Assembly (NCBI GenBank): GCA_012932295.1
Contig: JAAONU010000011.1
Span: 42,658,352 to 42,722,351 of the forward strand
DNA from: Cyclina sinensis
Taxonomy: Eukaryota > Mollusca > Bivalvia > Venerida > Veneridae
Length of the DNA stretch: 64,000 nt
Direction: 5' to 3'
Positions 5,994 to 39,978 of the stretch are shown in pieces. How positions within the stretch are numbered: position 1 is the stretch's first letter; the number at the start of each line of letters is the position of its first letter. The notes under the pieces are model-generated. The model was not told the DNA's origin and did not search any database. It worked only from the letters and a program-made list of their open reading frames with translations. The translations under genes and the position numbers were made by a program.

Positions 5994-6029
5994 CTCTGTG
6001 TTTACAACAGAACCAGACTATGGCGATTA
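5994..6029 (-). CDS. Gene A exon 6: end of transmembrane helix and stop-transfer
   Basis: 36 bp, acceptor TTTCAG|TA and donor AGAG|GTAAGT, phase 1 at both ends. Encodes VIAIVWFCCKHRG: the last hydrophobic turns, then basic residues that should face the cytoplasm. The next exon should start in phase 1 at lower coordinates but was not found. Confidence 0.75.
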
Positions 6030-9000
6030 CTGAAATAAAAAGTTGTACACCTGTGTCACTGATGCATGAAGCAATTTGTATACATTATTTCTGTAAGAAA
6101 TCGCGATTACGGCTAAATACTGGTTCCTACTATTGTGCGAAAAAGTTTGATGCATAAACTCCCACTTTTTCTAAAAATGGTAGATTTCAATGTAAAATGT
6201 GTCATAAATGCTTGTCTTTGAGGGATGTTGAATAAATGGAAACGGCTTACATAATATCCATTACTATTCCAAAAGTTTATTTACGCTTATGTCATTCTTT
6301 CTTAATCAAATTCGATAAGTTTGATTTACATTATAAAACAAAATTTCAGAAAGAAGATTATCTAATTCTACCTCCAGCTAGTAGTATGATCCCGAATACT
6401 GCGCCTACTATCCCTCCAACAAATGTACTTGAGTCATTTTCTGTGAAAATAAAACTATAATATCTATAAAATTGTTAATCAGAAAATACCAGCTTATCAC
6501 CTTTCTTATAATATTTCTCAATATGGTAAAGTAACCATACTTTTTAACCAAATAAAACTTTCTGACATTTCCAAAACAAAGTAAGGACAATATGAAAATA
6601 ACCGAAGCCCGGTCAGCATTTTGAAGTAACGCACTCTTCCATGTTTAAAGAGTTTTTTCTATGATTTTAAAATTTTTACAGATAAGTCACCAAAGCAACT
6701 ACGGTTCTCGACAGAATGACGTTGCTTGGAAAAATTTGATAGAAGTTCATGCAAGGAACATTCCAAAGAAGTTACAATATTATATGAAAAGCAAAAAGAT
6801 TTTGGAATTTCCCCCTATACGAGTCTTTTGTATAAAATTAAAAGAAAATTGCTGGTGTTATTGATCTTTGTGTCTGCAGCACCCAATACTTATAATACAT
6901 ATTTGTTTTGAGTGACATTAAGTTTTCCCTATATAAGTGTATATGACATAGATTGTATTGAAAATCAAAGTGTACTGATTTGATTGGAACAAACTGTGTG
7001 CTAGCAATGTACCTTACATATTTGTATTGAGTCACATGATCCCTTATATAAGAGTAAAGTCTTAAATATTGAATAAGAAATTAATCCAAGGGCTATAATT
7101 CTAGTGTTACTGATCAATTTGGAACAAATTTTATGCCAGCGCCGTCCCTTACTGGTGATACATATTTATGTTGAGTTTCATTGAAATCTCTATTGGTTAC
7201 TTAGTTAGGATACTGGATGGACGGGATGAAAGTGAAGACAAACGGACAACTTAAAAACAAAATCTTTCCACCTACTGTGAGTAGTAATAATAAGCATCTG
7301 ATATAACAAACAAAGCAAGCAACACATATCAATTTAAGTAGTTAACACAATAGATTAAGTACAACAAAATATCAAAATAAAATAAATGTTTACAAAAACT
7401 CTACAATAAATCATACAAGGGAGAACAGTATATATTGTTTTACCACAGGTAACCGCGGTAGGTTGTAACAATAAACTAATTTAAATCTGCAAACACTATA
7501 CTTGGTCCATAATTGAAGTAGTAGTGTGTAGTTTGATACTTTTTAATACACTTTTTTTATTGAGATTCATAAACAAACAGGTACTGTAAACCTCGACAGG
7601 TCTTTGGAATCTTGTACCCCATGTTTTGCATGAGAAATGTGGTATCTTGCACTTTTTTGTGTACGAAATATCCACATTTTCTGATAGTATTTTAATAAAC
7701 ACGTCTTCTGATTTTTAGCTAAAGGTGGGTAATACAAAGATTAGGCGACATTTAACTGAGGCAGACAGGTGACACATTGATCGGGTGGTGGAACAAGGGC
7801 CAAGTCACCGAGAGGTTAGGGAGGTCTTGGATGTGCATCATACCTTTTAATTCGATAGGAAATGACCCCTAGTAGTCGATGAAATCTTTGTTTCTATTCT
7901 CGTCTTCAACATTAATTTATGTCCTTTTTTTTAACAACATTAAATTGATTTATCAACCACTTAATTCCTAAAACACAGAAATTAATTGAGGTATAGTCGA
8001 TCTACACTCAAACATTCTGCATAAAATAATTCATTCTCTATAGCTTCATTCTTAGAGCCTAGAAAACTTCGAGTAGTATATCATAAAGTCATTTATTCTC
8101 CACGAAGAAATAAAACCAGACAGAAAATAGCAAATAAATTATCATTAAAGTTTTTTTTTAATTCGTCTCCCTTACTGACTCAGCAACATTACGCAAATAC
8201 TACAAGTAGTAAAATGCATATAGTTCATGCTTCATTAGAAATACATTTTACATGATTCAATTTTACGGTAGTCACTTAAATATAAAAGCGTATAGGCTAT
8301 AATTAAATAAACATTGCTACAAATGCCCAAAGTCCTAGGGTGAAGTGCAAGCTAATACATGCACCAGGGAGAAAATAGATAAAGAAAACAAATTACAAAT
8401 ACACTTACAAATCCATTTGATTTTCCTACAAGTTTTGCCGTCCAAGTGTATGTGTGGTAAATTGAAAATACAAGTACAGAACATATAAAAAGTAATAAAA
8501 ACCCCAAACAATTACAAAGAGAACAAAACATGTGCAGTAAGTCACTGTTTTTCAACCTTAAAACTTCTGTTGTCAAATGCTTATGACCTTGTGACGGTTA
8601 CAAACAATGATCAGCGTAAAAATCTACTATTTGATAAGATTCTTTTTTTTTCATTTCTTTCAAAAATTGATAACTGATCCTATGAAAACACATTAAACAT
8701 TTACCATTTACCTTCTACTGATTTGTAGGATATCAGAACTTTTTACAATCTAATTTGGTTTCAATGTCTGATTTACCAGTTCACTAATAAACATTTTATC
8801 TTATTCAATTTTTCACAATCAAATTTCTATCTATACACATATAGTATACGTCATCGTATATAATTAAACAGGAAATGTGCAGACCATAATCACAGGGCTA
8901 GAAACTAGCATAGTAAATCTTTTCCATGTGACTGTAGTCATATATTAATCTTAAAACATATTTGATAACTGGAATGTCGTAAAATTTTCTTTTAGTTGGA

Positions 9001-12000: not shown

Positions 12001-15000
12001 AATCACTTAAAAGTGTATGTTTTTCTCCTAAGGAACAAAGGGATTAAACCTGATTACAATTTGCAGGATTAAATTTGTTAAATAATTTTGCTTACCTTGT
12101 TTGTCATTGGGATTCTTTGATTCACTAAGACTAGGTGTACTTTGACTATTAGTAACTAAAGTTGTTGGTCTTATAGATTGAGGTTGTATAGTTGTTGGCT
12201 TAACATCTCTATAGGAAGAGAAAAAATAACCATCTTGGAAAAGAAACATTTATTCAACAATCCTATTTGGCAAAAAATAATTGTAATTAAACAACATTCC
12301 TATTGACCAAAGGCAAAAGTAAACAACAATCCCAATTTAAACAAATATTATAAAAAGTATCAACAAAGATAACCTTATAGAGAGTTGTTTAAAAGTGTTG
12401 ATAACTCTTTACTTTTATTAATACACAACTTACACAACTAAGAAATGGGACAAATTTTAGAAGAGTTAAATTAATCTTTCCTGAAAACATTGATAACATT
12501 TTCTTAAATGCCAATAAGGTACACCTATGAAATGCTTACGGCTCACATATAAAGTTGGAGGCAGCAGTCCTCACCTGACCAGGAAGACACCTTGGAGAGC
12601 ACGAGCAATCTGGAACATTAAACAGTTTAGACAATTAGTGGGATTTATTGATAATTTATTTACCTTACGCTAATTACATTAGCATTTGTATAGGAAAACT
12701 AACAGGACAAATTTGACATAGCATTTTCCCCCAAAAATATCTTAGACTTAATGGTGAACTTATCCCGTTTCCCATATATCATGACAGATTTTGAAACTCT
12801 GCTAAGATAGACTTTTATGGTCCAAGTAAATGAAACTATCTTAAGCAATGGTATGACAACTAACTCACCTGGCAGGAGCTCTTCAGTGTCGCCGCATGGT
12901 TTGTCAGCGGTTATACAGACATCATCCTTTGAAGCTAAATAGAACAGGGGTTTACCACGCGGATTGCATTTGTCGGTTTCAGTATTGCAATAAGCAATAG
13001 CATGATGATTCGGTGTTGTATTTCTGACGACCACTATTGATTGGTCTTTTAAACACGTGTCGAAACAGTTAACAAACCTAAACTGGTGATAACCGTCTGG
13101 ACATGGTACAGAGAATATCTGTACAGTATTTGGATGGTCGCTATCATATTGCACCACATTTCTAAATCCTGAAAAGAATGAACCAATAACTTGAGCTTTC
13201 TCAAAAGCATAACAAACATACAATGTAAAATGTTGAATCAAATATAATTAGCCCTTCTTAAATCTTTTCTGCTGATTAAAAAGTAATTTATTGGCGCAGC
13301 GCATGAGCAGGGCGTTTGTTTGTGTGGTACCGTTTAAAATCCCTGGAAGTGACTGTTATGTGCTATTGTTACTGTCGACATTTTTAAAAAGGGGTCATCG
13401 GCGTGAACTGTGAAGTTCAATGATGCACATAGATGCAAAGAATATCAATAATACCGCTTTAACACATTACTGTAGTTTTCTTATGCTATAATAAATTGAT
13501 GAATCAATATAATTGAACATTTTTGTACATGGAAAGGTGACTGACCACAGTGTAAGCAATAAATATTTTCTGTACTGTCTATATTACATGTGAGTATTCA
13601 GATATTACTGCAAAGCTTGTCTTTACTATTTTAGCGAAGGCTATTTTGCTGTTTCTAAAGTTTTTCCGATTTTCACCAGGAAATTGAAAGTTCTGCAGTG
13701 ACCATGAAAGCAAGTCTTGATTTGAGTATATATATATATCTTTTTTTCAAATGCATTTTTTTCATCTAACGCTGTTTACAAATCTTCGGATATCTAAAGC
13801 CATTTGTGTAATGTTATCCTGCTGATTATGTTTATGTTAATATCATTGTTTTCTTGTTCTGTAATGTAACAGCAAAATGCAGATGTTCAAAACGCATGAC
13901 TGACTTTGAATTCAAAAATGTAAAAAGCATTAACAAACCATACTTAGAGTGCAAAATCAGTTTAGTTTTTTGGTAAATCTATATCTACTTCTCTATTAAC
14001 AATTAGGTTTAAATAATATTATCTTTCAGTTAGTCTAATTTTTTTGTTCTTCAAAACAGGTGGCTCCAATTTCAGATTAAAATGAAAGGTTTAGAATAGG
14101 GGGATATATTAAAGCACTGTTAGATCACATTCGCAACAAATCATGTTTGTAACAGACTTTATTTTACAAATGTAATCACATTCGAAATTGGTAAAAATAT
14201 GTCACAAATATGTTTGTCTGACAAAAGAACATATGTAACAAGTCGAGTCCTTGAGTGTTCAGTTAGTTAATAGTAATAGAAAAATTATATATCTGCCATT
14301 AGTACCACTTCAAGTTATCATCACCATTGTCGTTATTACTACCTACTACTATTCCGCTAGTTGAATCCGTACAGTCACTTAGATTTACTCAGTAGCTGGA
14401 GTCGCCGGTTCGAGTCTTTACAAGAGGTTTTTTTTCGCCATCCTAAGCAATTTCAAGTTAAGTAAATATTAAAAAGTTGGTATGCACTGGGGGTCTGTAA
14501 GGGCGGTCCCGTTGGCCGTGTGTCTGTGTTGAGTGGGGGGTCGACCTTGTAATGTGGCCAGTGCCATTTACTTATCTGCCATCATTAATGTTAAGTTTGT
14601 AAGGTAGTACTTTGCTGAATATTTGTGCAGAAACAAACAACGTGATGGACTGACGAACAGGGGGAAGGACGTATCGGCGACTATATGCTTTAAGACTTTA
14701 GGATCAAAATAGCTATGAATGTTAACAAAAAGGAAATTACAAGTGACATATGATCATCTTGCTTTCGTAAAGTTTTATTCCCATATAACAAATAAAGGTA
14801 TTGGCCCAACTTTTAATAACAATAATTACTAAAAACTTGTGACAAATGTGTTATTATTGTAAACCGGCACTTTTGTCTTCCTTTTTCTGCAAGGAAAGTA
14901 TCCTACGGCAAATGTGATTGTATGTCACATCAAAAATTGGCATCGAACACATTCATCATGTTACACATGTGCTTGATTTCTGTTACACATTTGTAACACC

Positions 15001-15515
15001 TGTTATGCATGTGATCACATTTGGAACAGGTATTACACATATGATTCATTACAAATGTGGTCTAATAGGAGCAGAGTCATTGTTTCTTTTTTATAATAAC
15101 ATACATAAATGTGAAAAAATAAGATATTTTGAATCATTAAATCTAAAGTGAAAGACATATAATAACCAATGTACCTACTGTTTTCACATTTTGGTATCTC
15201 CGCACATATATGTAAGGTATATCCATTCCCATTAATGCAGAAGTAGTTTTCCTTCGGACAGACATCAGCAAAACAGAAGGTGTAAAACAAGTCCTTTTTT
15301 TTGTCATTCAAATGACACTCAAGTAATGGGTGCGCAGAACAGTCATCTGGTAAGTTAAGTACTGCGGCCTCTCCTACTTTCTTTGTAAAGCTCGACTGAA
15401 TTAGATCACCTTTGTCTGAATTTTCAACTAGCTGTCTTTGAAGGTCTAGACAAACAGCGCGGCTTGGTAATTCAAGGATGACAATGAGTTGAATGTAAAA
15501 GGCAAATACCATCAT
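5994..15515 (-). CDS. Gene A: type I membrane protein with cysteine-rich ectodomain (six exons placed; 3' exons not found)
   Basis: Family not recognised. Exons, all minus strand with GT-AG borders: 15515-15175, 13161-12869, 12609-12540, 12208-12096, 6440-6372, 6029-5994; end phases 2, 1, 2, 1, 1, 1. Two in-frame ATGs start exon 1, followed by a hydrophobic signal-peptide core (FAFYIQLIVILEL). Exons 1-3 encode about 235 residues with many cysteines in two blocks and a conserved RNTT N-glycosylation site. Exon 4 is a short Ser/Thr/Pro/Gln stalk. Exons 5-6 encode the membrane helix (FVGGIVGAVFGIILLAG, then VIAIVWFCC) and a KHR stop-transfer. The splice pattern matches gene B at 30-40 kb: exons 2 and 3 have equal length and phases agree throughout. 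Presumably a surface receptor or adhesion molecule; that is inference. The cytoplasmic exons, expected below 5994, were not identified. A LINE and a MITE lie there, so the gene may be broken or merely have diverged short exons. Confidence 0.8.
6372..6440 (-). CDS. Gene A exon 5: transmembrane segment, first part
   Basis: 69 bp, acceptor TTCACAG|AA and donor GGAG|GTAGAA, phase 1 at both ends. Encodes ENDSSTFVGGIVGAVFGII then LLAGG. Gene B exon 5 has the matching NSSTVVIVLVVFACVIG. Both transmembrane segments are split over two exons at the same phase. Confidence 0.85.
6600..7265. repeat. mollusc-type tandem repeat in gene A intron 4
   Basis: Units of about 130 bp share a GAT-AATTTGGAACAAA block, a CCTTAC block, a TACATATTTGTATTGAGT-CA block and CTATATAAG. 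Units lie near 6850, 6950 and 7075, with a diverged tail ending in GGATGGACGGGATG. A preceding piece (AAGTTCATGCAAGGAACATTCC, 6743-6765) matches the repeat around 4100. Noncoding. Confidence 0.6.
7751..7844 (+). pseudogene. possible fossil helix-turn-helix of a Tc1/mariner-type transposase
   Basis: The frame reads LTEADR, a stop (TGA), then HIDRVVEQGPSHREVREVL and DVHHT. It resembles the N-terminal homeodomain-like DNA-binding helix-turn-helix of Tc1/Pax-type transposases. Only about 30 codons are visible and nothing recognisable follows, so it would be a fragment. Could be chance. Confidence 0.3.
7870..9640. other. gene A intron 4, no feature recognised
   Basis: AT-rich. A 74-codon hydrophobic minus-strand frame at 8352-8576 has no recognisable motif, no start context and no splice relation to gene A, so I do not call it. 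Confidence 0.4.
9840..11900. mobile_element. large diverged inverted-repeat unit enclosing a tandem array
   Basis: Flanks 9840-10320 and 11400-11900 both carry many copies of a motif family around GTGCTAGCAC, ACGACATT and AAATTCGAAT. GTGCTAGCAC is itself palindromic, and the flanks are broadly complementary in orientation. Between them (10370-11150) lie about five units of roughly 150 bp: GTAACTACRCTTGGTAA, CTGTGAAGTTTC, GGTTATGGAGATATG, GTGTTCAAATTTGGA, AATCAAGACC. No coding frame. A non-autonomous foldback element loaded with a satellite-like core, within gene A intron 4, is the simplest reading. Confidence 0.5.
10370..11150. repeat. tandem repeat, about 150-bp unit, roughly five units
   Basis: Units recognised by TATGGAGATATGCC-TATGTGTTCAAATTTGGACAAAT near 10480, 10620, 10735, 10885 and 11030, with the linking CCGGAACACATCAATAATAC block. 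Sequence divergence between units is high, so the array is old. Noncoding. Confidence 0.7.
12096..12208 (-). CDS. Gene A exon 4: Ser/Thr/Pro-rich stalk
   Basis: 113 bp, acceptor CTATAG|A and donor CAAG|GTAAGC, phases 2 and 1. The peptide is rich in Thr, Ser, Pro and Gln without cysteine (PTTIQPQSIRPTTL...), as in a short O-glycosylated stalk between ectodomain and membrane. The equivalent exon of gene B is 110 bp. Confidence 0.8.
12540..12609 (-). CDS. Gene A exon 3: DCSC motif exon
   Basis: 70 bp, acceptor TTCCAG|AT and donor GAGCC|GTAAGC, phases 1 and 2. Encodes DCSCSPRCLPGQVR then about nine residues to a final cysteine. Gene B has an exon of the same length with DCSCVEGCPEGQVR. Too short for an ORF listing and found by homology to gene B. 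Confidence 0.85.
12869..13161 (-). CDS. Gene A exon 2: second cysteine-rich block
   Basis: Spans the acceptor GGATTTAG|A to the donor CCAG|GTGAGT, 293 bp, phases 2 and 1. Conserved with gene B exon 2 over its whole length: YD...P.TVQ..SV.CPDGY, NCF..C.KDQ.IVV.RNTT..HHA.A.CN, KCNPRG..FYL, DD.C...DKPC.DTE..LPG. More than half the residues are identical by eye. The RNTT is a predicted N-glycosylation site in both proteins. Confidence 0.9.
14114..15072. mobile_element. foldback element in gene A intron 1
   Basis: Outer arms are inverted: left from 14114 (TTAGATCACATT then AACAAATCATG) and right ending at 15072, whose complement reads TTAGACCACATTTG then AATGAATCATAT. Both arms contain irregular copies of TGTAACA, ACAAATGTG and ATGTGATCACAT, themselves near-palindromic. 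No transposase frame. A non-autonomous inverted-repeat transposon of unknown superfamily; no clean target duplication seen. Confidence 0.55.
14355..14425 (+). repeat. very degenerate tRNA-derived SINE head
   Basis: A box-B-like GGTTCGAGTC sits about 35 bases after an ACTCAGTAG block. The tRNA fold is largely lost. It lies inside the 14.1-15.1 kb foldback element. Low support. Confidence 0.25.
15175..15515 (-). CDS. Gene A exon 1: signal peptide and first cysteine-rich block
   Basis: Starts at ATG 15515 (a second ATG follows directly). After the signal peptide the segment aligns with gene B exon 1: QRQL / QQQL, then SFT..VGE, then a conserved CHLN...FCF.DVC.KENY.CI.GNG.T.HIC core. The donor is AG|GTACAT after CENSR, phase 2. 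The reading runs on past the donor by chance. Confidence 0.85.
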
Positions 15516-15529
15516 CTTCCTACGAATAA

Positions 15530-16600
15530 CTGTAAATTAAAATAAAAAACACAAATGTTATTAATATAGTGTAAAGAAAATGTGATACATGCAAAGTGGC
15601 AGTTATTAACCGTGCAAAATAAATACCGATGAAAGATAACTTAAATTTGCTAGTATTATCTCGTTAACAATTGGATTTTAACTACATTAAAACTCGTTGT
15701 AATATTCAGCTTAATATTAAACTATGTACCTATTTTCCATTATAGCACTTCAAACTGATTACGTTACCTGTTACTACCTATGTTGATTTATTTCATGATT
15801 GCGAAATAAACGCATATCGAAAATTATTTAGATGCGGTCATAGGTAATAGTATCACTGATCATAAAACCTCAATAAAAGAAAAACTTAATTTATACTAAT
15901 ATATACCTTCAAAATGTATTTCATCAATTTTTCGTAGTACCACAATCTTTGTTAATTTAGTAAAAATATTGACAATGTTGTAAACGTGTCTGAGTAAAAA
16001 TCCTTCAAATTTATACATATTTGGTGTTACTATTATATTACTGTCTAAACAGTAGTTTGCGTTAATATTTGAAATGTAAATAATAGATCATCATTTTTAC
16101 CCACTTAAGTCCCTTTACTTATATTGTTTGTTTGTGCTTCGCGTTGAAATCTTTTTTTTCAGAATATCTTACTTTTATTTCACCATGTGTGTTAGTGATG
16201 TCAGGAAATTCCATTTTGTGTCAAGTTTTTTTTTCAATGGCTATTGGAACACACTTCCAGATAATTAACTAATGAAAACATTCATAACAAAAGTCATTCG
16301 GGATATTTCGAAAAGCAATCAAGTGCAGCACAACAAAGGTTATGGGTAGAAAACACTCTAATATATGTAAAAACGATCTATATATCAGTGCATTAAATTG
16401 TTTTTAAGTTGGTACATTGTTACAATGGTGATCTTTTACGTACTTACTATTTTCTAACAATAAAAAATGCAAAACTTTAGAAAAAAAACGTCACCTCAGT
16501 GATGTTCCTGGTTTTCCATATGAAATACACCTTGTAGATATTTTAGTAAAAAGGGGTTATATCAGCTCAGTGATACTGTCACCTGAGGGTGCGTATTTGG
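15530..16600. other. upstream flank of gene A, no feature recognised
   Basis: Would contain the promoter and any 5' UTR exon of gene A. I see no TATA box at a convincing distance and no SINE or coding exon. Confidence 0.35.
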
Positions 16601-16610
16601 GTAAAACATA

Positions 16611-18395: not shown

Positions 18396-18399
18396 ACTT

Positions 18400-19108: not shown

Positions 19109-19147
<39 letters not shown>

Positions 19148-26276: not shown

Positions 26277-26304
26277 TATTACTTCCTCTGTAGTACCTTA
26301 ATCC

Positions 26305-27155: not shown

Positions 27156-27162
27156 GTTCACC

Positions 27163-28140: not shown

Positions 28141-28149
28141 TTCACCGGA

Positions 28150-28530
28150 TTAAGAACTCTTAAGGTGCTCAAGAAACGTTATCGGAACTGTCGTTGCATA
28201 TTCACTTGCATAACATAAAATACACTTTACTTTTTTCTATTTTAATGGAGTTATTTTGGTTGAAGTCACCTTGTTGTTTGTGTTCTGAAAGTAGTTACAA
28301 TGGCGGCTTATAACCGAGAGGTGATGGTAAGAATTACCCGGGGTTTTCCGATTGTATATCGTATATTGACCTGTTTTCGATATTGACGTGTTTTCGAGAC
28401 TTTCTCTTTCTTGTTTACCACAACAACGCCGGAATTGAAATGACGTCACACAGTATTTACAATTTTTCCTAGGTCGTAGTCTTAATCGAACGCGCGGAAA
28501 TTTTACAAAATACGCATGAAAAACATAAGG
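28150..28530. other. intergenic, nothing recognised
   Basis: A GGTAAGAATTACCC-like stretch and short palindromic pieces only; no exon or known repeat. Confidence 0.35.
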
Positions 28531-28536
28531 GGTCAG

Positions 28537-29060
28537 ATATTTTACATAAAGTTATATAGGAAAAACTTTTAAAAATCTTCTTGTCAGAAACCGCATGGCC
28601 TAGAGTTTAGATATTTGGAGTGTAGCATTGTCTAGTGGATCTCTACTTAGTTTGTTCAAATCGTAGCCACTGGGTCAAAATAGGCCCTGCCCCGGGGATC
28701 ACTTGTTTACATAGAGTTAATATATAGGAAAAAGAGTAAAAAATCTTTACATCAGAAACCAAAAGGCATAGAGCTAAGATATTTTGTATGTAGCATTGTG
28801 TAGAGGACCTCTATTAAGTTTGTCCAAATCATGGCCCCTGGGTCAAAAATAGCCCCGCCCCAGTGGTCACATGTTTTACATAGAGTTATATAGGAAAAAA
28901 TTTAAAAAAAACTTTTGTCAAAAGCCACAACTCCTAGAGTTTGGATATATGGTGTGCGGCATTGTCTAAGGGACCTTTACCAGGTTTGTTCAAAACATGA
29001 CTCACGGGTCAAAACTGGCCCCACCCTGGGAGGCGGGGGGGGGGGGGTCGGGGGTCAATT
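28537..29060. repeat. tandem repeat, about 165-bp unit, three units
   Basis: Units share TTTACATAGAGTTATATAGGAAAAA, TTGTCAGAAACC, TAGAGTTTAGATAT, GTAGCATTGTCTA-TGGA, GTTTGTTCAAATC-TGG, TGGGTCAAAATAGGCCC-GCCCC. Diverged relatives lie in gene B introns at 31900-32160 and 34100-34960. A poly-G run at about 29033-29047 closes the array. Confidence 0.75.
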
Positions 29061-29910
29061 GATTTTATTGATTTCATTGTTATTTCTCCCACTAAACCCA
29101 CCTTTCTGATGGAGACATATTGTTTTTGGCCTGTCCATGGGTGTTTGTTTGTCTGTCTATCTGTCATGCTTAGTTTCCTTTCAATAACTTGAGTACCAGT
29201 TGACCCAAAGCCTTCACGTTTCACAGGGTTATTGCCCTTATTGAGTAGAAAAAAAAACTTTTGTTTTTTAGGTCAGTAGGTCAAAGGTCAAGGTCAGAGG
29301 GACCTCTAGAGTGAAAACTGTTTCCACTCAATAACAGGAGTATCATTTCACCCAAAGCCTTGAAACTTCATATGTTGATTGCCTTTACTAAATAGAAGAA
29401 ACATGTTGTATTTGGGGCTAGTATGTCAAAGGTCAGGGTCACAGGGACCTGTAGAGTGAAAACTGTTTCTGCTCAGTAACTGTAGTACCATTTCAGCCAG
29501 AGCTTTCAAACTTCATTGGATGATTGTCTTTACTCAGTAAAAGAACTCTATTACTTTTGGGGTCAGTAGGTCAAAAGTGAAGGTCACAGGGACCTGAAGA
29601 GTGAAAATTATTTCTGCTCAGTAACTGGAGTACCATTAATCCCAGAATCTTCAAACTTCATAGGGTAATTACATTAGAAGAACCCTATTGTTTTTGGGGT
29701 ATGTAGGTCAAAGGTCAAGTTCACTGGGACATGTAGAGTAAAACTATTTCTGCTAAAAAAATTGAATACCATTACACCAAGAGTCTTCAAACTTATTCAA
29801 ACTTTTTCAGACTAGCAAACAACGAACACCCATAACAACCAATAACGATACTTGCAACATGAGCAATGAGACTCAGGTGAACGATTTAGGGCCATCATGG
29901 CCCTCTTGTT
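29060..29910. repeat. tandem repeat, about 120-bp unit, five units, with GGGCCATCATGGCCCTC tail
   Basis: Units repeat CTCARTAACTGGAGTACCATT, CCAAAGCCTTCAAACTTCAT, TTTTGGGGTCAGTAGGTCAAAGGTCA and GGTCACAGGGACCTG-AGAGTGAAAACT. The array ends in ACTCAGGTGAACGA then GGGCCATCATGGCCCTC, a terminus that recurs at the ends of bivalve repeats. 5' flank of gene B. Confidence 0.75.
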
Positions 29911-30135
29911 ATAAGAAAATTTGCGAATGATATCCTATAGTCTCGAAAACACGTCAATCAAGGATACATAATTGTCACAGCTACACGTAATTTTAAACAA
30001 CTTTGAAACCTATTACATTAATTAAAATATTAAGTGTTAGTTCACTTTAGGGGATAGTTGTTTTGGCTAGTATATATCCCTTTATTACATGACACTTTTA
30101 TCATTTTTAAACACTGCAGTTTCATATTTCTTCAG

Positions 30136-30460
30136 GAAGAATAGACAACACACACATCTTACTATTTATTGCCTTGCCATTGAAAGGCATCCATAGTTTG
30201 CAACAATTTCAACAGCAGCTTATAAAGAAGCACGCATACACTGATTTGTTACAGTCGCCGTTCACCTCACACGTAGGAGAGTTTCGAGTTCTAGACGTGC
30301 CAAAATGGTGCTCTTATGAACTACTAGATGGGTGTCATCTGAACACAAAAGACCAAGACCTCTATTACGAATACTGTTTTAGTGACGTCTGTAAAAAGGA
30401 AAATTACTACTGTATAGATGGGAATGGTTTAACCATACATATATGTGGAATAATACCAAG
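30136..30460 (+). CDS. Gene B exon (first seen): leader and first cysteine-rich block
   Basis: Acceptor TTTCTTCAG|GA (phase 1 entry), donor CCAAG|GTGAAA (phase 2). Aligns with gene A exon 1: LQQFQQQL, DLLQSPFTSHVGE, CHLNTKDQDLYYEYCF, DVCKKENYYCIDGNGLTIHIC. Gene A starts with ATG at the equivalent place; gene B has no ATG here. Confidence 0.85.
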
Positions 30461-33400
30461 GTGAAAAATAAATAGGTATAACGGCCTATATATATATGTG
30501 CGCTTTTCTCATACTATGAGCGACCATAAACTTGATTTCGTCATCTGATAATTATCAAGTTTATTTAAAACTGAAATTTAAATGTCCGTCTTCCACATTT
30601 ATCAAACTATATAGATTCATTTGGTTCTGATAGTTATATGCAGCATGAGTGTTGATGATTGTCTCTATTTAGCTCAGCTGAGGACATGTTTAGGTCGTGC
30701 TTTTGTGGCCGGTTCAAGGTTCAATACCCAGCGTCCGTCTTCAACATCTTACTCGTTATTACCAATTCATTTTGAACCATGTTTGTTAGTTTTGTCCTGA
30801 GTCTATCACAAATTTGAAGCTATCATGTAAGGTCAGAAAAGGTCGTCAGCTCAAGCGGTCTTACCCGAAATTTATGAAACTGTCAGAATGTCTTTTTTAA
30901 CAATTACTTTTATAATTTTGAAACTTGGTTATGTGCGACCAAAGAAAAAGCTTATGAACACTGTGTTAGTCACATTTTGGACACCGTCTTTACAAATTTA
31001 ATGACTTCAGTGATTTGATTTAAGGACACGTTTGAAACTTAGCAAAGTGGGATCAAAAACAAGATGCCCTGCTAACTCATCCAATTGAAGTGATACATAA
31101 TAATTGTATTATCATAAAATTGTGTACGTTTTTTTCATGAATTCAGTGCATGATCATCAAAGTTCAACTACTTTTTACGTCATTCTGCTCAGTGTTCAAT
31201 GCAAACAAGCTTCATGGAATACCAGATATTTTAAAAACTTGGATTCGTGGTATAACCGCGTTTACTGTAAAACATTTTGAATAGATATTTTTTACTTTCA
31301 AAAAGTAAAACAGTTTGTTTGTTTCCAATCCATTAGGATACAGATATGTTGCAGAGTATGACACTACCAATCCAGATACAGTTCAGGTGTACTCAGTCCT
31401 GTGTCCGGACGGCTATGTTCAGCCTAGTATTGGAAATTGTTTTAACCAATGTTGGAAAGACCAATTAATTGTAGTGATCAGAAACACAACCTCACAACAC
31501 CATGCTGTAGCCCACTGCAATATTAAAGACGGCAAATGTAATCCGCGCGGTGTAAATGTGTTTTATTTGGATTCGCAAGATGATATATGTGAAGAACCTG
31601 ATAAACCGTGTGATGACACCGAAGACTTTTTACCTGGTGAGTAGTTCGTCGTGATATTAGATTTTTTAAAAATGTAACGTAAGACTAAAATATGCCTTCT
31701 TGAACTTCCATAGTAGCTGGAACGAACTCGAATATTCCTCAAGTATATCGTTAACTCCACATCGTAAAACTCAACCCTAAATATTCTAGCTTTATTCAAC
31801 CATGCTTTACCAGAATGTTTCCTGAATTGCATCCTATCAGATTTGATAGTTTTATTGAGTTCCGTGCAGCACTGCTTTGTTCCATTAGTGATCCCCTATA
31901 TAAATTGTGAAATCAATTGTGGTCTTTGAAAAAAAAAGGCCGACAGGGGGCGGAGCTTTTTTTCCCTATAGGTCTAAATGAGAAACTAAAAATACTATCC
32001 CGAGTAACTGTTGATTTAATTTGAAAATACTTTGAATAACCGATTGTTCAAATATTGACCCTAGGGTAAAAATAAGGTGCGCCGCAGGGGTCATCTGTTT
32101 TTACATAGACTTCGTTTTAAAAAAAAAAAAGAAGAAAGAGAATATATTCAAATCTAACACCAGGAATAAATGAAGATGTATAATATGTGGTACTGTTTTT
32201 GTGGTATTTAACAATAATTGTTTAGATCATGGACCTGAAATATATTATCAAAATTAATGTTTTAGATTGCTCGTGTGTAGAAGGGTGTCCTGAAGGACAA
32301 GTGAGGTCTTTAAGCAGCGAATTTTCATGTGTGCAGTACGTATAATTTGTGAATATGTAAAAGACTTGTAAATTAACCGAAGCCTTAATCATAAGTTTAA
32401 CAATATTTGTAAACGTCTTCGGCTATTATTGTTTGCATCTGAACCTAAGCTGATCAGCTTGTCTCCCGATTCAGGTAATTCCTTGAATGTTTTTGTACAG
32501 CTTTTCCTTCATCCTTTAGGATTGCCGAGACAGCAGCCTCAAGCCAGCCAAGCACAAAAGCAACTAGTCAGCCTAATTCTAGTCCAATCCCTCCTGCCAC
32601 AGACTCATATAATTCATATGGGTATAAAGGTAAGCAATGTAGCTTATAAAGCTCTGTATATTTGTTTTACAGGATCATGCAAGCGAACCATAGTAAAAAC
32701 ATTTGATTCATTGTTTAGTAAAAGGCAAATGCATATTAATGTTATTACATGAAATAATTTTGTTTTAATGTTCAGATTTACATATGGTTAAATGGTTAAA
32801 GGAAAACTATGCCAGATACAGTTTTTTTTCTGAAATGCATTTATTTATTCTCATTTGCTTATGTAGTAGTATAATAACACAACACAGCTGTAAATATTTT
32901 AGCACTTTTATACTAATATCTTGATCTGAACAGGACTAACAAAAGAAAAGTCTTAGGGTTGTACAAAATGAATTTACATTATTTATATTTTTCTTCATTT
33001 CACATTGCAAAACAATGATTGTGATAAATATAGACTATGATAAAAACATGACATATTTATCATCTAATTTTATGAGTAATATCCTAAAGGATAAAGAAAC
33101 GAAAACCCTAAAGAGGATTCATGTAACGGGTATTCTCACCGTTACGCTAAGTGGGCAGGAAGTATTCATTATCTGTACTCAAATGAGAGGCATACACTAA
33201 AATTTACCTATGCATACTGCATGTGTTTTTCTATTTATTAAAAAAATGTTTGAACATGAAAATAATTAACCATTCAAAGAAGAACATATGTTCAAATCTT
33301 TTTCGGTAGGACATATAAAAGAATTCTTCATTTGTAACAAGTCGTTATTCACCTAAAATTGTAAATTGTCAGCAGCTCAAAATGTCAATGCATCCAATTT

Positions 33401-36400
33401 ACCTTTCGTATTTTGAGCTTTTGACTGACAACTTGACAATGGTATTGGTTCTATATCATTTACCTTATGATTTAGAATGATACTGAATGATCCAAATTTT
33501 GGAGTATTTCTCTTTAGATTTATGTATACAGTTGAAAATTCTTGCTACAGTTTTTGTGCGACCTAAGCATGGTATGCCAAAAAGAACTCATACACATGGT
33601 TTAAATGGTTTTGCTTTTGGTTACTACTTTGTGTGAAGCAACTTGAGTGTCTAACAGAACATATTTGAATAAATGTCAAAATGTGATTGAGTGTACACTC
33701 GATTATTACTTGATTAATTATACGTATTTTAGTAGTATATACTCAGTTAGAAATTCAATGTGTTTCATTTGTATCTTGTTAACTAGGATGACAATAAGTG
33801 TAAGTCTAATTATAATATATGGAATGTTGTCTTATCATTTTCTATTCTCCTTCATCATTGTGTTAACGCTATTAGTTTCAAACTATATCCTTTTTATTAG
33901 TCCTTTCCTTATTACTGCTTGGTGTTTGTCTATGCTTTTGGTTGTCTCACATTAGAAGGTGTGTACTGTGTGAGCTTCTAGGATCGATGACTGGCCGCCG
34001 ACTACATTTGCTTTAAATGACATCTCCTCTAAAACCCTCGAGTTAGGCCAGTTTGGATTAAAAAATCGTACCGGTCCATTGTTACACAGCTAAAATTAAT
34101 GATATTTAAAGAAAACATCAACAAGAATTACTTATATATTTTGTATGTAGCATTTCGTTGTGGATCTTTACCAATTTTTCTCAAATGGTAACTCAAAACT
34201 GGTAACCCAAAACTGGCAGCCCAATAGTTCAATAGTTTTTGATGTGATAATGACAATTGATTTTCGAAACTACAAGGCATTAGGCTATCGTTTTTTGACA
34301 TGTTGCATTTAGTTGACCTTTACGAAGATTGCTGAAATTATGCCCCTTGAGTCATCGTTAGTCCTCACCTATGGGTCACATGTTTGACAAATATATATAT
34401 TTAGTGACAACTTTGAAACTCTCCTGTCTTAAACTACATGCCCAAAGCTTTCATATTGTTCTTACATCATTTAATAGCTGACCTTTTACAATTGCCTAAA
34501 TTATGCCTGTATGGTCATTAATGACCTCGCCAAAATGTTTTTTATGGTTTGCATGTATCACTCTGTATTGTTGACCTTAACAAAAAGTCTAATGGGATTT
34601 CTTACTGGGTCACTGTTGGCCTCGCTGGCAGAGTCAAATGGTTAAAAGAAAATCTTGAAATAATATCTACTTAGAAATTGCAAGGCCCAGAGTTCTGATA
34701 GACTTTATAGCATTGTCTAGTGGTCCGAACAAGTTTAATCTTATTATACCCCCATGTTTATCATTAACCCTATCCAGCCAATCACATCCGAGACGTACTG
34801 GAAAACCTTCTTGTCATAAACTGATTAGCCTTGAGCTTTGATATTTTTCAAGTTGTTTGTCTGATTGGATTTAAACTTGAATTGCATTGCACTTTTTTTT
34901 GTTTTGAGAAGCTATTCTCAGATGAGCGACCGGATCATCGTGCCCCTCTTGGCTCTTTTTGCTCCTGTTGTAAAACTAAAATTGATCCCGTCATTTAACT
35001 GTAGAAGAGCATAGTCAGATGGTCAGAACCATTGTTTTTTCTTTGGTCCCCAACCTGTTGTTTGTTTTTAGTATCATTGTCTTACATACTAAGAAAAGAG
35101 GTATTTTAGACACTTAAAATAACCAATAATGTAATTCTAATACTAATATTCACCTCTGAAGGGACAATAGTACATATAGTTTATATAGCAGCATGCTAAG
35201 CATATTGCATCATTTATTGTTAAACAATCACAGAATCAAAAATGAATCAAAAAGCAAGCATTGTATTGTTCTTTGATCCACTCTTTTTACCTTTTATATA
35301 TTAAAAAACACCAGAAAATGGCTATTGCTCTGGGAACACACAGAACCTTGAAGACATTATTTTCGGCAAAGCTGTTCAACCATAATTTTGACCTATTTAG
35401 GGATGACGACTTAAGATGATAAATAGAAATATATGCTTCATGTTCACAAATATTAATAAAGTATTTGACTTAATTATGTTTTTGTCCGATAATTATTTTG
35501 TTTTGTCAAAACACGTTTTGTAGGTGCAAGATGAAACTTGTTTCGGGCCGAATGTTTTTAAGTAATACTTTTATTACCATCAACCCCGTGTATCTTTTTA
35601 TGCCACTGAAGGATGGCATATAGTTTTTGAATAAGTAGTATGTTTACTTTTGCAGGTTCCAATTCCTCAACAGTTGTGATAGTCTTAGTTGTGTTTGCAT
35701 GCGTTATAGGTAAAACTGGTTAATCTTAGTTCTTCAAGATTTTGTGATGTAATTTAAGCTGAACTTGTTTTTATAGTGTAATAGTATTTTTCACATGTAA
35801 TATAATCTTTATTTATCAACATTACGCTGTCCGTAGTCTCACTATTTCGCCTCCGAAGGTGAACCGATTTCATAGGTTGATATTTTATAGTTGTTCACCT
35901 TCTACATCTCACCTAGATCTGCGTCTGCTCACGCGGATTCGCCCAGTCGTATGCGGTTGGGCACATATTATGACTCGTTTGTCCCATATTTTGCAGAGTT
36001 TAAAACAAAAATGATGACGTTAAGATAAAATATGATAACTTAAACCCTACCAGTCCCTTTCATCAAAGAAAAAAACACACAGATAATAAAGTAAAAACTG
36101 AAACACTTGTTTTGTATCTGTTTATCGTTCATGTATGTATTGTCGTTAAAAAGACATTTTTGTTTTGTTGTTTGTGTTTATGGTCAGTGGCGTTTCAGGT
36201 TTTTATTTCCTCTGTGTTATTTGTTTAAATTCTGTAACTTAGCTTGAGAATTATAAAAATGGATCTCTGTAAACACTGCGTTAAGACTCGAGTCGTTAGA
36301 ACTTATGAAGGAATAACATTGTAACCTACACTGATATAAAAATTCCTTTTTTTGAGAAACACCTTTAAAGTAAATACTACAAACTTGTATTTGGCAACAG

Positions 36401-39400
36401 TAATTTAGGTCTTTTTATGACTATAAGTGCATGTTGTCCTACGTATCTTTAATTTTGTGAATAGTGACCAATAAATTTACAATTATACGCAATTATAGAA
36501 TATATAAAGTGAAAATCCAAATAATGATTTTTGTTCTTAACTCTTTGAGAATGACTGTTTATAAATATCTGTTAAATAAACACTTTTTTTACGTAAAGAA
36601 CAGACTGCTTTATTTCAGGTCTTCTTGTCATGGCCTTTGTTGTGTTCTTTTGTACAAGAGGTGTGTATATTGCAAATTAACTTTAACCACCTTTTTTCGG
36701 CGGTATAGAATGCAGCTGCAACGAATTTTATTATTCGAGGCTCCAGCAGCATTCACATGTAAATACTGCAGGAAAACATACGCTGTCCCTCATATTTTGT
36801 TGTTGATACAAGACAAACATGTGATGTAAATGGGGTTCATTATATAAATAAAAAGATTAACATGTTGAAATTTGGAATCTTTATATAGAAAAAAAACTCT
36901 CTAATGACATGTTAAAGTTTTATATCTTTGATTTTCTTTGAATAAATAAAAACAATGTTGAATCACTCGTCTACACAGTTTTAATGCGGAAATCTTGCTA
37001 CACATAAAAACCAGCAACAGTAAATGGTATAATCAATTATTGTGTAACGTACATATTCCTTTTCTTTCATTTTCATTCAGAATTTCAAACAGATAAGATA
37101 AGATTTGTCGGAGAGTAAAAAGAATTTTTTTATTTGACAGTTTATCATAGAGTACCAGTTGAGGAGGAGGAAAGAAACATTGGTAAGTTATGCAACATTT
37201 TGTTACCGATCATTTATGAAACCTGTTAAGGATTTCAACAAACTTTTCTTTTCTATTTGATTTGATTAATAACTGCACATTCTCCACCTCTCTATTTATT
37301 TAAATTTTCTGTTGATAACAATAGAATAAACCCATCTTAAACACTCTGCAGCATACCTTTATAAATTTGAGAAATGAATGTCGGATTCAAATTCCTGTCA
37401 TATAATCAAGGGAATAGATCTCACCTGCATTGCGTATGATCAGCAAGCGATTTGCTGGATTATTTCATTATTATTTCTCCTATAAAGTATGAACTACAAG
37501 CTATCATGCTGTAATAAGTTTTTGTTTTACAATTCAAATTTTGCCATGTTAAAACATCAGCTTTCAGTAACAGTTACATTGTTTTACAGGTAATCGACAA
37601 ACGCCCTCCGACGAGAACAGGAAAGGAGGTGAATAAGAAAACAGTGACACTTGATTCCTTATGAAAAAGTATTTGAAAACAATGATTTATGTGTGCAGAT
37701 AGGAAGTTCTGTCACAATTTGACTTGCTTCAAAGTCTTTGAACAACTGTTATATTATTCTTGCAAAGCAGAGCGTAGGACAGAAGTCTCTCTCCCCGCCC
37801 CCTCTCCCCCCCCCCCCCCACACACACATACACGAACAAAAGCCCTCCCATCAAAAATGACAAGGTGGAGAAAAGACCTCCCATCAAATTTACAGGCGAG
37901 GCAAAAGCACTCCCGTCAAATTAACAAGGTAGACAAAAGCCATCCCATTAAATTAACAGGTAGGACAAAAGCCCACCCACATTATAAAATATCAAGACAC
38001 ACTTTTATGTGACAAACTTCTTATTATTAATAAACATAACGCTATACATTTTACAAAATTGGTTGGAAGATTTTTTTTTCAACAATTAATTACTGATTAC
38101 TGACAATCAAATATCAAATACCGACATCAAATTAAAGTGTAAAGTGCTAATAACAATTAATCATTTTAACTTAAAACAGCATAAATTAGTTAATAGTAGT
38201 AATAATTGGCAATTTTCAGTTTGTTCCATACTTTTCTTCCTTTTTTGTTTGAAACAGAATTCCAATTTAATGTAATGATATTGAAAGTACATTCCTTGCA
38301 TCTGTATTAAAATACACACATTCTACCTTACAATCTATAAATTGAGTGGAAGTGTCCAGTTTTATTACATCTTACCTTTGTTTTGTTGAAAATTCGATGA
38401 GTTGATTGAGTTATTTGGCATAACATTATAATATGAATATTGCATTAATAATTGATCCTATTTTACTTGTAAGATTGGGATGGCTTTTTCAATGTAGGAG
38501 GGTTTTTGTCCTTGTTGTTAATTTAATGGTAGGGGTGTTGTGGTTTTTGTCCACCTCGTTAAATTGACGGAAGGGCTTTTGTCCTACCTATAAAATTGAT
38601 GTGTGTGTTTTTCTCCACCTAGTCATTGTTTGATAGGAGGACTTTTTTGTCCGTATCTCTGCAAAGCAAGGTTTCAACAAGTCTATCTTAGCATGATACT
38701 GCGTACTCATAATGAACGACTTAACTTGTTGTTTTTGTCGTCAATAATGTATGACGTGTATGACACTTTTGCATGACAAATTTCTTGCCATAACTGCTCC
38801 GAGTCTTTCTGAGTACTTGAGAAAATGTGCATGCACCGTCTGAAACTTTTGTTATTATGGACATAAAACGTGTGTAAATGGTATGAAACTGGAGCCTCAG
38901 ATGTCTCCAAGATTGAAGTACATCAGTCATCACCATAACTTGTCAGTTTTTTAACATTTAAATGTATAGTGTAGAGCTGGTTGTACAAGAATTAAGATGG
39001 GTAAAACTTTGTTTTATTTTACTTTCGGAAAGCAATTTAAGACCGGTGGGTCACAAAATATTATTGATAATTTTATTTTGATGTATCTCAAGCACATCTT
39101 GCCGTCCACGAAAATTAACCATGCAGATTGGTCGTTGATAATGTTTTTAAGCTTTCTAGAGTTCTTAATTGGTTTATTTTTGTAACAATTATGACCAGTA
39201 TCATAACTTTAACTGGCAGTGTGTCATTTTTGCAGAGGGTTCTTATTAAATCATCAATGTATTTACAATGTTTACAATGATTAGTGTAAATAAGAACATT
39301 GCGAACACAAAATTATTAATATGTCATAATTCTTTTCTTAAAATCGAATGTCTGGTATTGATTCAAAAACATGTCTTTTTCGGATTTCAGGCAATGTTAA

Positions 39401-39978
39401 TATCAGTAAAGAAAAACGTATAAATGAAACTTCAACAACAATCAGTTCGAAGAGAGATGTCAATATGACATACAATGTGTATTGTCAGCCAGAAGGGGTC
39501 AACAGTCATGATTGCTCTAAAAGAGACACTCGTGCTAACTCCGTTTACTTAACCGATGGCGTTGGGCCACAGGATTACATTCCAGAAGAAATTTGTCATG
39601 AACAAAAAATGAATGAATTAAAAGTGAGTTCACATTTTAACTAGAATCGGAACTTCAGTGTATGTAATTATGAAAATTCGAAGTTTAATATATCTGATTG
39701 GTGACGATAGAATGAAAGGATTTTTCACCTTTTTATCGAGGGGTGAATAAAAGAATCTAAGTGCTATAATATTAAGAAACTTACAGCACTTTTTTGCATT
39801 CATCCCTCTTTATGTTCTATGGTTGTAGATACTGTCAAAAATATAAAGGCTATCAGAAATATTTTTTATAACGAAACTTTATTAATTACTGTTATTTTCA
39901 TTTAAGGAACAAAGCTTCCAGAATATAGAGAGTGGAATGGGTTCGAGTGAAAACATGTTCCCGAAACAAGTCATTTAA
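30136..39978 (+). CDS. Gene B: type I membrane receptor-like protein, paralogue of gene A (ten exons, 5' start exon missing)
   Basis: Family not recognised. Exons: 30136-30460, 31344-31636, 32266-32335, 32520-32629, 35656-35709, 36619-36660, 37141-37182, 37590-37628, 39391-39623, 39907-39978 (TAA). All borders are GT-AG and phases chain without a break, giving about 425 codons. Order: hydrophobic leader (ILLFIALPLKGIHS), two cysteine-rich blocks with RNTT glycosylation site, DCSC exon, Ser/Thr/Pro stalk, transmembrane helix (VVIVLVVFACVIGLLVMAF) ending CTR. A cytoplasmic tail of about 145 residues follows, with an acidic VEEEERN patch and several tyrosines (TYNVY, SVYLTDG, QDYIPEE) that could be phosphorylated. 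No enzymatic or death domain is visible. The coding frame enters exon 1 in phase 1 with an in-frame stop upstream and no ATG between, so the start codon must be in an unseen 5' exon. Confidence 0.85.
30660..30735 (+). repeat. degenerate tRNA-derived SINE head in gene B intron 1
   Basis: TTAGCTCAGCTGAGGACATG followed by GGTTCAAGGTTCAATACCC resembles tRNA A and B boxes at slightly long spacing. Old and partial. Confidence 0.35.
31344..31636 (+). CDS. Gene B exon 2: second cysteine-rich block
   Basis: Exactly 293 bp like its gene A counterpart; acceptor GATACAG|A, donor CCTG|GTGAGT. Conserved CPDGY, NCFNQC, KDQLIVVIRNTT, HHAVAHCN, KCNPRG, DDICEEPDKPCDDTEDFLP. The reading frame extends a few codons past the donor by chance. 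Confidence 0.9.
31900..32160. repeat. diverged copy of the 28.5-kb tandem repeat family in gene B intron 2
   Basis: Contains GTTCAAATATTGACCCTAGG, GGGGTCATCTGTTTTTACATAGA and GAGAAACT blocks like the 28.5-29.0 kb array. Confidence 0.5.
32266..32335 (+). CDS. Gene B exon 3: DCSC motif exon
   Basis: 70 bp; acceptor TGTTTTAG|AT, donor GTGCA|GTACGT. Encodes DCSCVEGCPEGQVRSLSSEF and a final cysteine. Same length and phases as gene A exon 3. Confidence 0.85.
32520..32629 (+). CDS. Gene B exon 4: Ser/Thr/Pro-rich stalk
   Basis: 110 bp; acceptor CCTTTAG|G, donor AAAG|GTAAGC. Peptide ASSQPSTKATSQPNSSPIPP and following residues to YNSYGYKG: cysteine-free, rich in possible O-glycosylation sites. Confidence 0.8.
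34090..34970. repeat. diverged mollusc-type tandem repeat in gene B intron 4
   Basis: About five units near 34130, 34270, 34420, 34540 and 34680 share GTAGCATT...GTGGATCTTTAC, CTTGGGTCA and ACTGGCAG-like blocks. The array ends at GAGCGACCGGATCATCGTGCCCCTCTTGG, a worn version of the terminus seen at 29.88 kb. Confidence 0.6.
35656..35709 (+). CDS. Gene B exon 5: transmembrane segment, first part
   Basis: 54 bp; acceptor TTTTGCAG|GT, donor ATAG|GTAAAA; phase 1 both ends. Encodes GSNSSTVVIVLVVFACVIG. Missed by length-based ORF finding; supported by homology to gene A exon 5. Confidence 0.85.
35833..35912. repeat. partial copy of the 26.3-kb repeat in gene B intron 5
   Basis: GTAGTCTCACTATTTCGCCTCC and GAAGGTGAACC...TTGTTCACCTTCTAC match 26327-26395 almost exactly. 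Confidence 0.8.
36619..36660 (+). CDS. Gene B exon 6: end of transmembrane helix
   Basis: 42 bp; acceptor TTATTTCAG|GT, donor AGAG|GTGTGT; phase 1 both ends. Encodes GLLVMAFVVFFCTRG, completing the helix with a Cys-Thr-Arg boundary. Confidence 0.8.
37141..37182 (+). CDS. Gene B exon 7: juxtamembrane acidic segment
   Basis: 42 bp; acceptor TTTGACAG|TT, donor ATTG|GTAAGT; phase 1 both ends. Encodes VYHRVPVEEEERNIG. Confidence 0.75.
37590..37628 (+). CDS. Gene B exon 8: cytoplasmic tail
   Basis: 39 bp; acceptor TTTTACAG|GT, donor GGAG|GTGAAT; phase 1 both ends. Encodes GNRQTPSDENRKGG. Symmetric small exon that could be skipped without a frame change, as could exons 5, 6 and 7. Confidence 0.7.
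37759..38670. mobile_element. foldback element with minisatellite arms in gene B intron 8
   Basis: Ends CTTGCAAAGCAGAG (37759) and its near-complement CTCTGCAAAGCAAG (to 38670). The left arm has four to five units of about 36 bp (AAAAGCCCTCCCATCAAA, then TTAACAGGTRGA). The right arm (38475-38660) has the same units inverted (GGGCTTTTGTCCTACCT). No coding content; the proline-rich open frame across the left arm is repeat-derived. Confidence 0.7.
39391..39623 (+). CDS. Gene B exon 9: tyrosine-containing cytoplasmic tail
   Basis: 233 bp; acceptor GGATTTCAG|GC (phase 1), donor AAAA|GTGAGT (phase 0). Contains tyrosines in MTYNVYCQPEG, NSVYLTDGVG and PQDYIPEEI. The last two have a hydrophobic residue at +1 or +3 and might bind SH2 or PTB domains; none is a canonical ITIM, ITAM or YxN site. 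The tail function is unknown. Confidence 0.8.
39907..39978 (+). CDS. Gene B exon 10: C-terminus and stop
   Basis: Acceptor CATTTAAG|GA, phase 0. Encodes EQSFQNIESGMGSSENM and six more residues to TAA at 39976-39978. The nearest AATAAA downstream is at about 41123, which would give a 3' UTR of about 1.1 kb; that is only a candidate. Confidence 0.75.
   Translation, partial: EQSFQNIESGMGSSENMFPKQVI

Follow-up and report, generated by a model that had tools for sequence, protein, structure and literature searches.

The divergent gene pair

The window, a 64,000-nucleotide stretch of the Cyclina sinensis assembly (contig JAAONU010000011.1, positions 42,658,352 to 42,722,351), contains two divergently oriented genes, A on the minus strand and B on the plus strand. 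Exon 1 of A (15175 to 15529) comprises the end of the 5′ untranslated region, an ATGATG start, a likely signal peptide, and the first cysteine block. Exon 2 (12869 to 13161; 293 bp) encodes the second cysteine block, including an RNTT site that in A precedes a proline, and exon 3 (12540 to 12609; 70 bp) is the DCSC exon, from which read-through into the intron meets an immediate stop (CEP*). A Ser/Thr/Pro stalk lies in exon 4 (12096 to 12208), and the transmembrane (TM) helix is divided between exon 5 (6372 to 6440; phase 1) and exon 6 (5994 to 6029), which is followed by a consensus donor. Because no significant match to the tail exons of B or to Mercenaria tails was detected below this last exon in the window, nor in the next 10 kb leftward of it, gene A as modelled from sequence is incomplete, and the exons after exon 6 were not found.

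Gene B has the same order of parts. Its exon 1 spans 30120 to 30460, followed by exon 2 (31344 to 31636; 293 bp), the DCSC exon 3 (32266 to 32335; 70 bp; read-through gives the early stop CVQYV*), the stalk exon 4 (32520 to 32629), and the two TM halves in exons 5 (35656 to 35709) and 6 (36619 to 36660). The tail is encoded by exons 7 (37141 to 37182) and 8 (37590 to 37628), the tyrosine-bearing exon 9 (39391 to 39623), and exon 10 (39907 to 39978), which carries the motif ESGMGS at position −16 relative to the C terminus and then the stop. A hydropathy scan gave strong TM peaks in both proteins and an N-terminal hydrophobic stretch in A that is absent from B.

A and B are paralogous, with 141 of 298 aligned residues identical (47%; E = 6e-92). 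Chance likeness is excluded by the tblastn matches to B within the window (A exon 1, E = 4e-27; exon 2, E = 1.5e-34) together with the homologues in the clam Mercenaria mercenaria described below. The first-pass annotation had proposed a divergent pair of type I receptor-like genes belonging to no named family, and this observation is partly confirmed. The shared lengths of exons 2 and 3 stand, as do the matching phases (2, 1, 2, 1, 1, and 1 at the six exon ends common to both), the RNTT site, the DCSC exon, the stalk, and the division of the TM helix between two phase-1 exons, all of which support the proposed architecture as a prediction. The exons of each gene can be joined across GT-AG borders with open frames, in B exon 1 by way of an internal GT. 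The exon 1/2 junction fits the Mercenaria proteins slightly better in phase 1 (8 of 9 score comparisons over A and the second copies A′ and B′ described below were better, and 1 was tied); exon 1 of A would then end at 15179, and exon 2 would be 300 bp long (13168 to 12869 in A, 31337 to 31636 in B). Over 208 ectodomain codons, dN was 0.36 to 0.39 and dS 1.25 to 1.47 (dN/dS about 0.25 to 0.31). None of the five intron pairs aligned, and the upstream regions of A and B showed no similarity of weight. The interval between the genes is about 14.6 kb long and contains DUF3504/QRICH1-like pieces.

Homologues in a second clam

Gene A alone as a query had no match at E values up to 10. A search with an A-plus-B profile, in line with the first-pass suggestion to search the joined translations, recovered three Mercenaria proteins annotated as uncharacterized, P0001 (E = 4.7e-40), P0002, and P0003; in the reverse direction, tblastn with P0001 matched A exon 2 (E = 8e-19). 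The corresponding loci (LOC128551499, LOC128551500, and LOC128551680; isoforms X2) all belong to this one clam, which agrees with a molluscan origin. No papers were found naming LOC128551499 or LOC128551680, and we call the family undescribed because literature searches by locus name and by topic gave no description.

Like A and B, the Mercenaria proteins have two cysteine blocks, an N-x-S/T site, and a [DN]CxC...C block. Sixteen ectodomain cysteines are invariant in all five sequences, and each of the five has N-x-S/T at the RNTT column. P0001 and P0003 also resemble B in their stalk, TM segment, and DSG-type motif at position −16 of the tail. All three differ in being only 28 to 34% identical to A and B and in lacking two cysteines common to A, A′, and B′. 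The hydropathy scan found an N-terminal hydrophobic stretch in all three and strong TM peaks in P0001 and P0003; P0002 is a predicted form without a TM segment. At the level of sequence, these comparisons establish the common ancestry of A, B, and the Mercenaria proteins, and a predicted layout in which two cysteine blocks are followed in turn by the DCSC exon, a stalk, a hydrophobic TM segment, and a tail.

The receptor-like proteins had no Pfam match above the cutoff, and NCBIfam and PDB gave none that was usable, so the ectodomain has no clear counterpart there in a well-known family, and a scan of viral_contigs returned no relative. Several candidates were rejected. The PDB entry SAKe6AR (E = 2.4e-09) owes its score to six near-identical repeats added together, none with an i-Evalue below 100, and Tablysin 15 (E = 0.11) was set aside as chance. 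RIFIN (P0001, E = 0.00024) and DUF4330 (P0003, E = 0.0031) lie below the Pfam cutoff and span the stalk, TM, and tail. Folding A exon 2 from its sequence alone gave a model of no use (pLDDT 37.6), and a nine-row fold was of low confidence (pLDDT 56.8); searches of PDB and BFVD gave nothing at an E value of 0.001 or better. We claim neither a known nor a new fold for the ectodomain.

A second copy of the block

Protein searches of the C. sinensis assembly with P0002, A, and P0003 found only three loci, all on the contig of the window (C3): the A-B pair, a second copy (A′-B′), and one diverged third member. This does not bear out the earlier suggestion of an expanding family. The third member (44.7247 to 44.7256 Mb; 2.5 kb read) has homologous exons 1 and 2 and, by eye, most of the cysteines; it is 34% identical to A over exon 2 and has no RNTT site. 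The A-B pair sits in a block of which C3 carries two colinear copies in the same orientation, separated by 5.9 Mb, with probes running from 42.518 (48.474) to 42.962 (48.806) Mb. The block copies are mostly 92 to 98% identical, but between the first exons they are only 67 to 79% identical. This divergence peak (15168 to 29963) covers exon 1 of A together with the interval reaching to B. The excess in exon 1 extends to synonymous sites in A (16.5/73 versus 4/61, p = 0.015), and the corresponding comparison for B was not significant (13/69 versus 4/59, p = 0.066). In the B-B′ tail, dN was 0.044 and dS 0.014 on 14 differences, which are too few for a claim of positive selection.

The frames of A′ and B′ remain open, and A′ retains 14 of the 16 invariant cysteines as read by eye; the two it lacks are cysteines 1 and 3, as would be expected if these pair with each other. 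Comparison with B′ qualifies the first-pass view that both genes look real, which fails for B. Exon 1 of B has a stop immediately upstream and no in-frame ATG, where B′ has one. At its homologous 3′ end an in-frame TGA stands in place of the TGT of B′, and the GTAAGT donor of B′ has been lost, such that the frame stays open only through the internal GT, at a cost of five residues. A scan for an upstream ATG exon gave no candidates with a donor of at least 8/9 (22.0 to 30.1 kb) and 11 weak ones with a donor of at least 7/9 (20.0 to 30.1 kb). Because of the missing ATG, the in-frame TGA, and the lost donor, and since B′ has neither the TGA nor the donor loss, the B copy of the window is probably disabled, with B′ as its open counterpart. 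A probably disabled gene can pass as intact within a single window.

The second block is either the product of a segmental duplication or a second allele that the assembly has misplaced. We lean toward the latter, in which the other allele was assembled apart and misplaced by 5.9 Mb, leaving one pair with two very different central haplotypes. The colinearity and shared orientation of the copies favor it, as do the many blocks that are 98 to 99% identical and, as given in the genome report (PMC7251785), a k-mer heterozygosity of 1.53% and an assembly of 903.2 Mb that exceeds the k-mer size estimate of 864 Mb. Against it, several blocks differ by 5 to 8%, the sequence read around the copies (164 kb and 160 kb) contains no runs of N, and the heterozygous SNP rate in the same report is only 0.81%.

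Possible roles

In the explanation that we propose, A and B encode receptor-like glycoproteins of the type I, single-pass kind and are members of a small clam family that is as yet undescribed; we regard this explanation as a whole, role included, as evenly poised. A signal peptide would direct the disulfide-rich ectodomain to the cell surface, where it would bind some ligand at a distance from the membrane set by an O-glycosylated stalk; a form terminating after exon 3 would act as a soluble decoy. The tail, which contains tyrosines in B and the motif [DE]SGxx[ST], would signal and may be turned over through a beta-TrCP-like phosphodegron. All 3 tails compared (B, P0001, and P0003) have this motif at −16, and in shuffled B tails it occurred with a probability of 1.6e-4 at that position and 0.017 anywhere. 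Compared with the DSG(X)2+nS of SCF-betaTrCP substrates, DSGIYS of P0001 fits, whereas DSGIHT of P0003 and ESGMGS of B deviate. IL-10R1, whose DSG motifs reduce its surface level via beta-TrCP, and IFNAR1, cited as a known beta-TrCP substrate (both as stated in PMC3210801), are alike in working layout only (type I, single pass, DSG-motif tail); no sequence or fold relation to A or B was found. Members of this clam family perhaps have a soluble form and, in the tail, a degron-like motif.

The proteins could instead be nonsignalling surface or secreted products in mucin-like adhesion, shell matrix, or mucus, the stalk and tail being mere anchors. We consider this rather unlikely, although searches of the B, P0001, and P0003 tails revealed no signalling domain, the tails diverge strongly in the family alignment, Podoplanin and sialomucin gave weak Pfam matches to the stalk and TM below the cutoff, and P0002 lacks a TM segment; the shared −16 motif, the tyrosines in the B tail, and the constraint on the 16-cysteine ectodomain speak for more than an anchor. 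A recognition receptor that binds chitin or glycans and whose first domain resembles CBM14/peritrophin is very unlikely; none of the five ectodomains matched any Pfam family, CBM_14 included. Also very unlikely is a divergent TNF receptor-like protein serving the expanded set of TNF ligands in venerid clams. The TNF receptor superfamily shares the cysteine-rich, stalked type I layout; for Mercenaria, 77 genes annotated as TNF are listed against one TNF receptor by domains (in the counts given by PMC8905726); and the noise-level matches of the low-confidence fold model include RANK (E = 2.8) and a viral TNFR-Cys protein. Yet TNFR_c6 is not among the matches listed for A, B, P0001 to P0003, or the five ectodomains at E values up to 10 (HMMER filters drop most matches above 0.1), B, P0001, and P0003 have no death domain, and no confident fold was obtained.

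Returning to the proposed receptor-like family, an immune or recognition role is one that we can only infer, and its best hint is the divergence peak at the center of the pair. By analogy with allorecognition and MHC-like loci, the pair might be a single recognition locus long held polymorphic, the block copies being alleles with a diverged center. The N-terminal cysteine block of A would then be the variable part, the haplotypes would differ in their working partner (B disabled in one, A′ two cysteines short in the other), and the receptor together with a soluble form of it would act in self/nonself or pathogen recognition. Taken jointly, these points make a reading that we consider decidedly unlikely.

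What is new here is the twofold colinear block on C3 with its divergence peak between the first exons. The pair represents an animal receptor-like family without a Pfam domain in at least two clams, and the roughly 15 kb between the two first exons is the precise site at which the divergence of the block copies far exceeds that in the remainder of the compared sequence. The C. sinensis assembly may contain a large false duplication. To our knowledge, few recognition loci of such a kind are known in bivalves; if the copies are alleles, this locus would rank as a candidate for a recognition gene in these animals.

Structure and relatives of the receptor-like pair

The two divergent receptor-like genes of the window, A and B, can both be built from open frames with GT-AG borders. 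Gene A occupies the minus strand, beginning with exon 1 (15529-15175) and followed as far as the second transmembrane (TM) exon (6029-5994); gene B occupies the plus strand, with its first exon starting at 30120 and its stop at 39978. The first-pass annotation had described their structure correctly: the GT-AG joins stand, as does the paralogy (141 of 298 aligned residues identical, E = 6e-92), exons 2 and 3 are equal in length, and phases agree at six shared exon ends. None of the five intron pairs aligned. Across 208 ectodomain codons dN/dS was ~0.25 to 0.31, a constraint that exon 3 (DCSC) and the Ser/Thr/Pro stalk (exon 4) did not show when taken alone. Judged by sequence comparison, A and B are an old pair that has been under coding constraint during much of its history.

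A protein database search with A alone found nothing. A profile of A and B detected Mercenaria mercenaria LOC128551499 (protein P0001; E = 4.7e-40), and a three-sequence profile, scored over the 7996 candidates with most words in common, additionally detected LOC128551500 and LOC128551680 (P0002 and P0003). All three are named "uncharacterized," and Pfam, NCBIfam, and PDB sequence searches with the proteins of the family, A and B included, gave nothing usable, in agreement with the earlier statement that no named family fits. Sixteen cysteines are invariant in all five aligned sequences, and the column of the RNTT glycosylation motif reads N-x-S/T. A TM segment is present in P0001 and P0003 but not in P0002, which ends six residues past the last conserved cysteine; a predicted fold of the P0002 ectodomain (pLDDT 56.8) had no confident structural neighbor. 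Because readthrough past exon 3 meets a stop immediately in A and a few codons on in B, a TM-less form of these two is possible as well.

The tails of B, P0001, and P0003 share the motif [DE]SGxx[ST], in each case 16 residues before the C-terminal end. Among 200,000 shuffled B tails it fell at that place with a frequency of 1.6e-4 and anywhere in 1.7%. Since it was noticed in the alignment before the shuffle test and the whole tails gave no significant alignment (p = 0.11 and 0.31), we treat a degron-like signal here as a lead. DSGIYS (P0001) matches the DSG(X)2+nS consensus, from which DSGIHT (P0003) and ESGMGS (B) deviate; through this consensus, according to an excerpt of PMC3210801, beta-TrCP reduces surface IL-10R1.

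Family size and state of gene B

Whole-genome protein searches of the 902.86-Mb assembly, in which the window occupies C3:42658352-42722351, with P0002, A, and P0003 returned 8, 11, and 9 matches, respectively. Every match was an exon of the window pair, of a second pair (A' and B', 48.62-48.64 Mb) on the same contig, C3, or of a diverged third member, C, at 44.725 Mb (C3:44724660-44725620; exons 1 and 2 read). Further copies, which the first-pass annotation had proposed seeking, thus exist on this contig, yet the "expanding" family it envisaged was not borne out: with all matches accounted for by two pairs and C, the family appears to be small in this genome, as far as exon-by-exon searching, which can overlook remote members, detects it.

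Exon 1 of B lacks an in-frame ATG, with a stop immediately upstream; in B', an ATG stands at the corresponding place. A scan of 22.0-30.1 kb detected no upstream exon that combines an ATG with a good donor. In 20.0-30.1 kb, eleven weaker candidates match the donor consensus at seven or more of nine positions, so B may start further upstream. A phase-1 donor at the end of exon 1 is usable in A, A', and B', and the phase-1 exon 1/2 junction fits Mercenaria better in eight of nine comparisons and equally well in the other. This route is shut in B by an in-frame TGA and loss of the donor; the B exon-1 match contained one TGA in two whole-genome searches as well. Only an internal GT keeps B open, at the cost of five residues, including one cysteine that is present in A, A', and B' and absent from Mercenaria. 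The extra cysteine of ectodomain block 2 is also absent from Mercenaria, and the two may pair in A, A', and B'. Invariant cysteines 1 and 3 are both gone from A', a joint loss suggesting that these may likewise form a pair. The frames of A, A', and B' are open over the stretches read. Lacking an ATG and the donor and carrying the TGA, B is probably disabled, and the earlier impression that both genes look real did not hold for it.

A duplicated block with a divergent center

The second pair is colinear with the window pair in equal orientation, and the match reaches far past the genes. Probes at 42.518, 42.593, 42.788, and 42.962 Mb matched 48.474 (99%), 48.542 (96%), 48.722 (87%), and 48.806 Mb (100%), respectively; a probe at 42.398 Mb was single-copy. 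The block occurs at C3:42.518-42.964 (containing the window) and 48.474-48.808 Mb, mostly 92 to 99% identical where read, with continuous reading over 42.598-42.762 Mb and other ground between probes interpolated. In 5-kb bins over 164 kb, the copies were mostly 92 to 98% identical where aligned, some bins being unaligned; identity fell toward the far right, to 86 to 90% at 90-100 kb and, in the bin at 100 kb, to 73% across the 2% that aligned.

Between the first exons, the 15-30 kb bins showed 67 to 79% identity across 10 to 31% of their length. Among 62 sliding 10-kb windows (median identity, 94.7%), the three lowest that aligned begin at 15, 17.5, and 20 kb; one, at 80 kb, had no alignment. 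The peak extends into gene A, where amino acid identity to A' is 71.8% in exon 1 and 95.9% in exon 2. The effect is weaker between B and B' (exon 1, 84.1%; its mature part, 93.1%; exon 2, 93.9%). Exon 1 exceeded exon 2 in synonymous divergence for A (p = 0.015) and, not significantly, for B (p = 0.066). Relaxed constraint alone is insufficient to explain the peak, because the largely non-coding flanks are still mostly 92 to 98% identical. Faster turnover of a repeat-rich center is possible. DUF3504/QRICH1-like gene pieces, presumably Crypton-type, lie between A and B (24229-26061, minus); 25063-25761 exceeded both Pfam cut-offs, and the flanking pieces were called by eye.

Other mobile-element pieces were observed in the window. 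A segment with transposase-like pieces, which we take to be hAT-like, occurs at 45418-48935 and 55910-59357 (94.4%), its DUF659 matches falling under the Pfam cut-off. The 45418-48935 copy is interrupted, and a fold-back element with long inverted arms (49219-52045; terminal 60 nt, 100%; next 443 nt, 96%) is placed within the first repeated segment. LINE-type reverse transcriptase fragments lie at 4429-5271 (minus), downstream of the last known A exon, and 61560-63804 (plus); 62338-63396 exceeded the Pfam RVT_1 cut-off, and the remaining LINE-type calls were made by eye.

Discussion

We lean toward the second copy being the other allele, separately assembled and misplaced, a reading favored by the k-mer heterozygosity of 1.53% reported for Cyclina sinensis and an assembly exceeding the k-mer estimate, both given in part of PMC7251785. 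The SNP rate of 0.81% in the same excerpt fits an allele less well, and the copy may instead be a true segmental duplication. The stretches read around both copies contain no N runs, a finding that lends no support to a misplaced piece but is compatible with one. Whether allele or duplication, the center of the divergent pair is, by these identities, the oldest or least homogenized part compared.

The sequences support a membrane-anchored protein with a disulfide-rich ectodomain, a stalk, and a short tail. The chief alternative to a receptor function is a protein with a passive role at the surface or in the matrix, and the TNF-receptor and chitin-binding readings are weak. That the family encodes a receptor is a proposal we find evenly balanced: the disulfide-rich ectodomain, anchored at the membrane on its stalk, would bind a ligand, a soluble form would exist beside the anchored receptor, and receptor turnover would be regulated.
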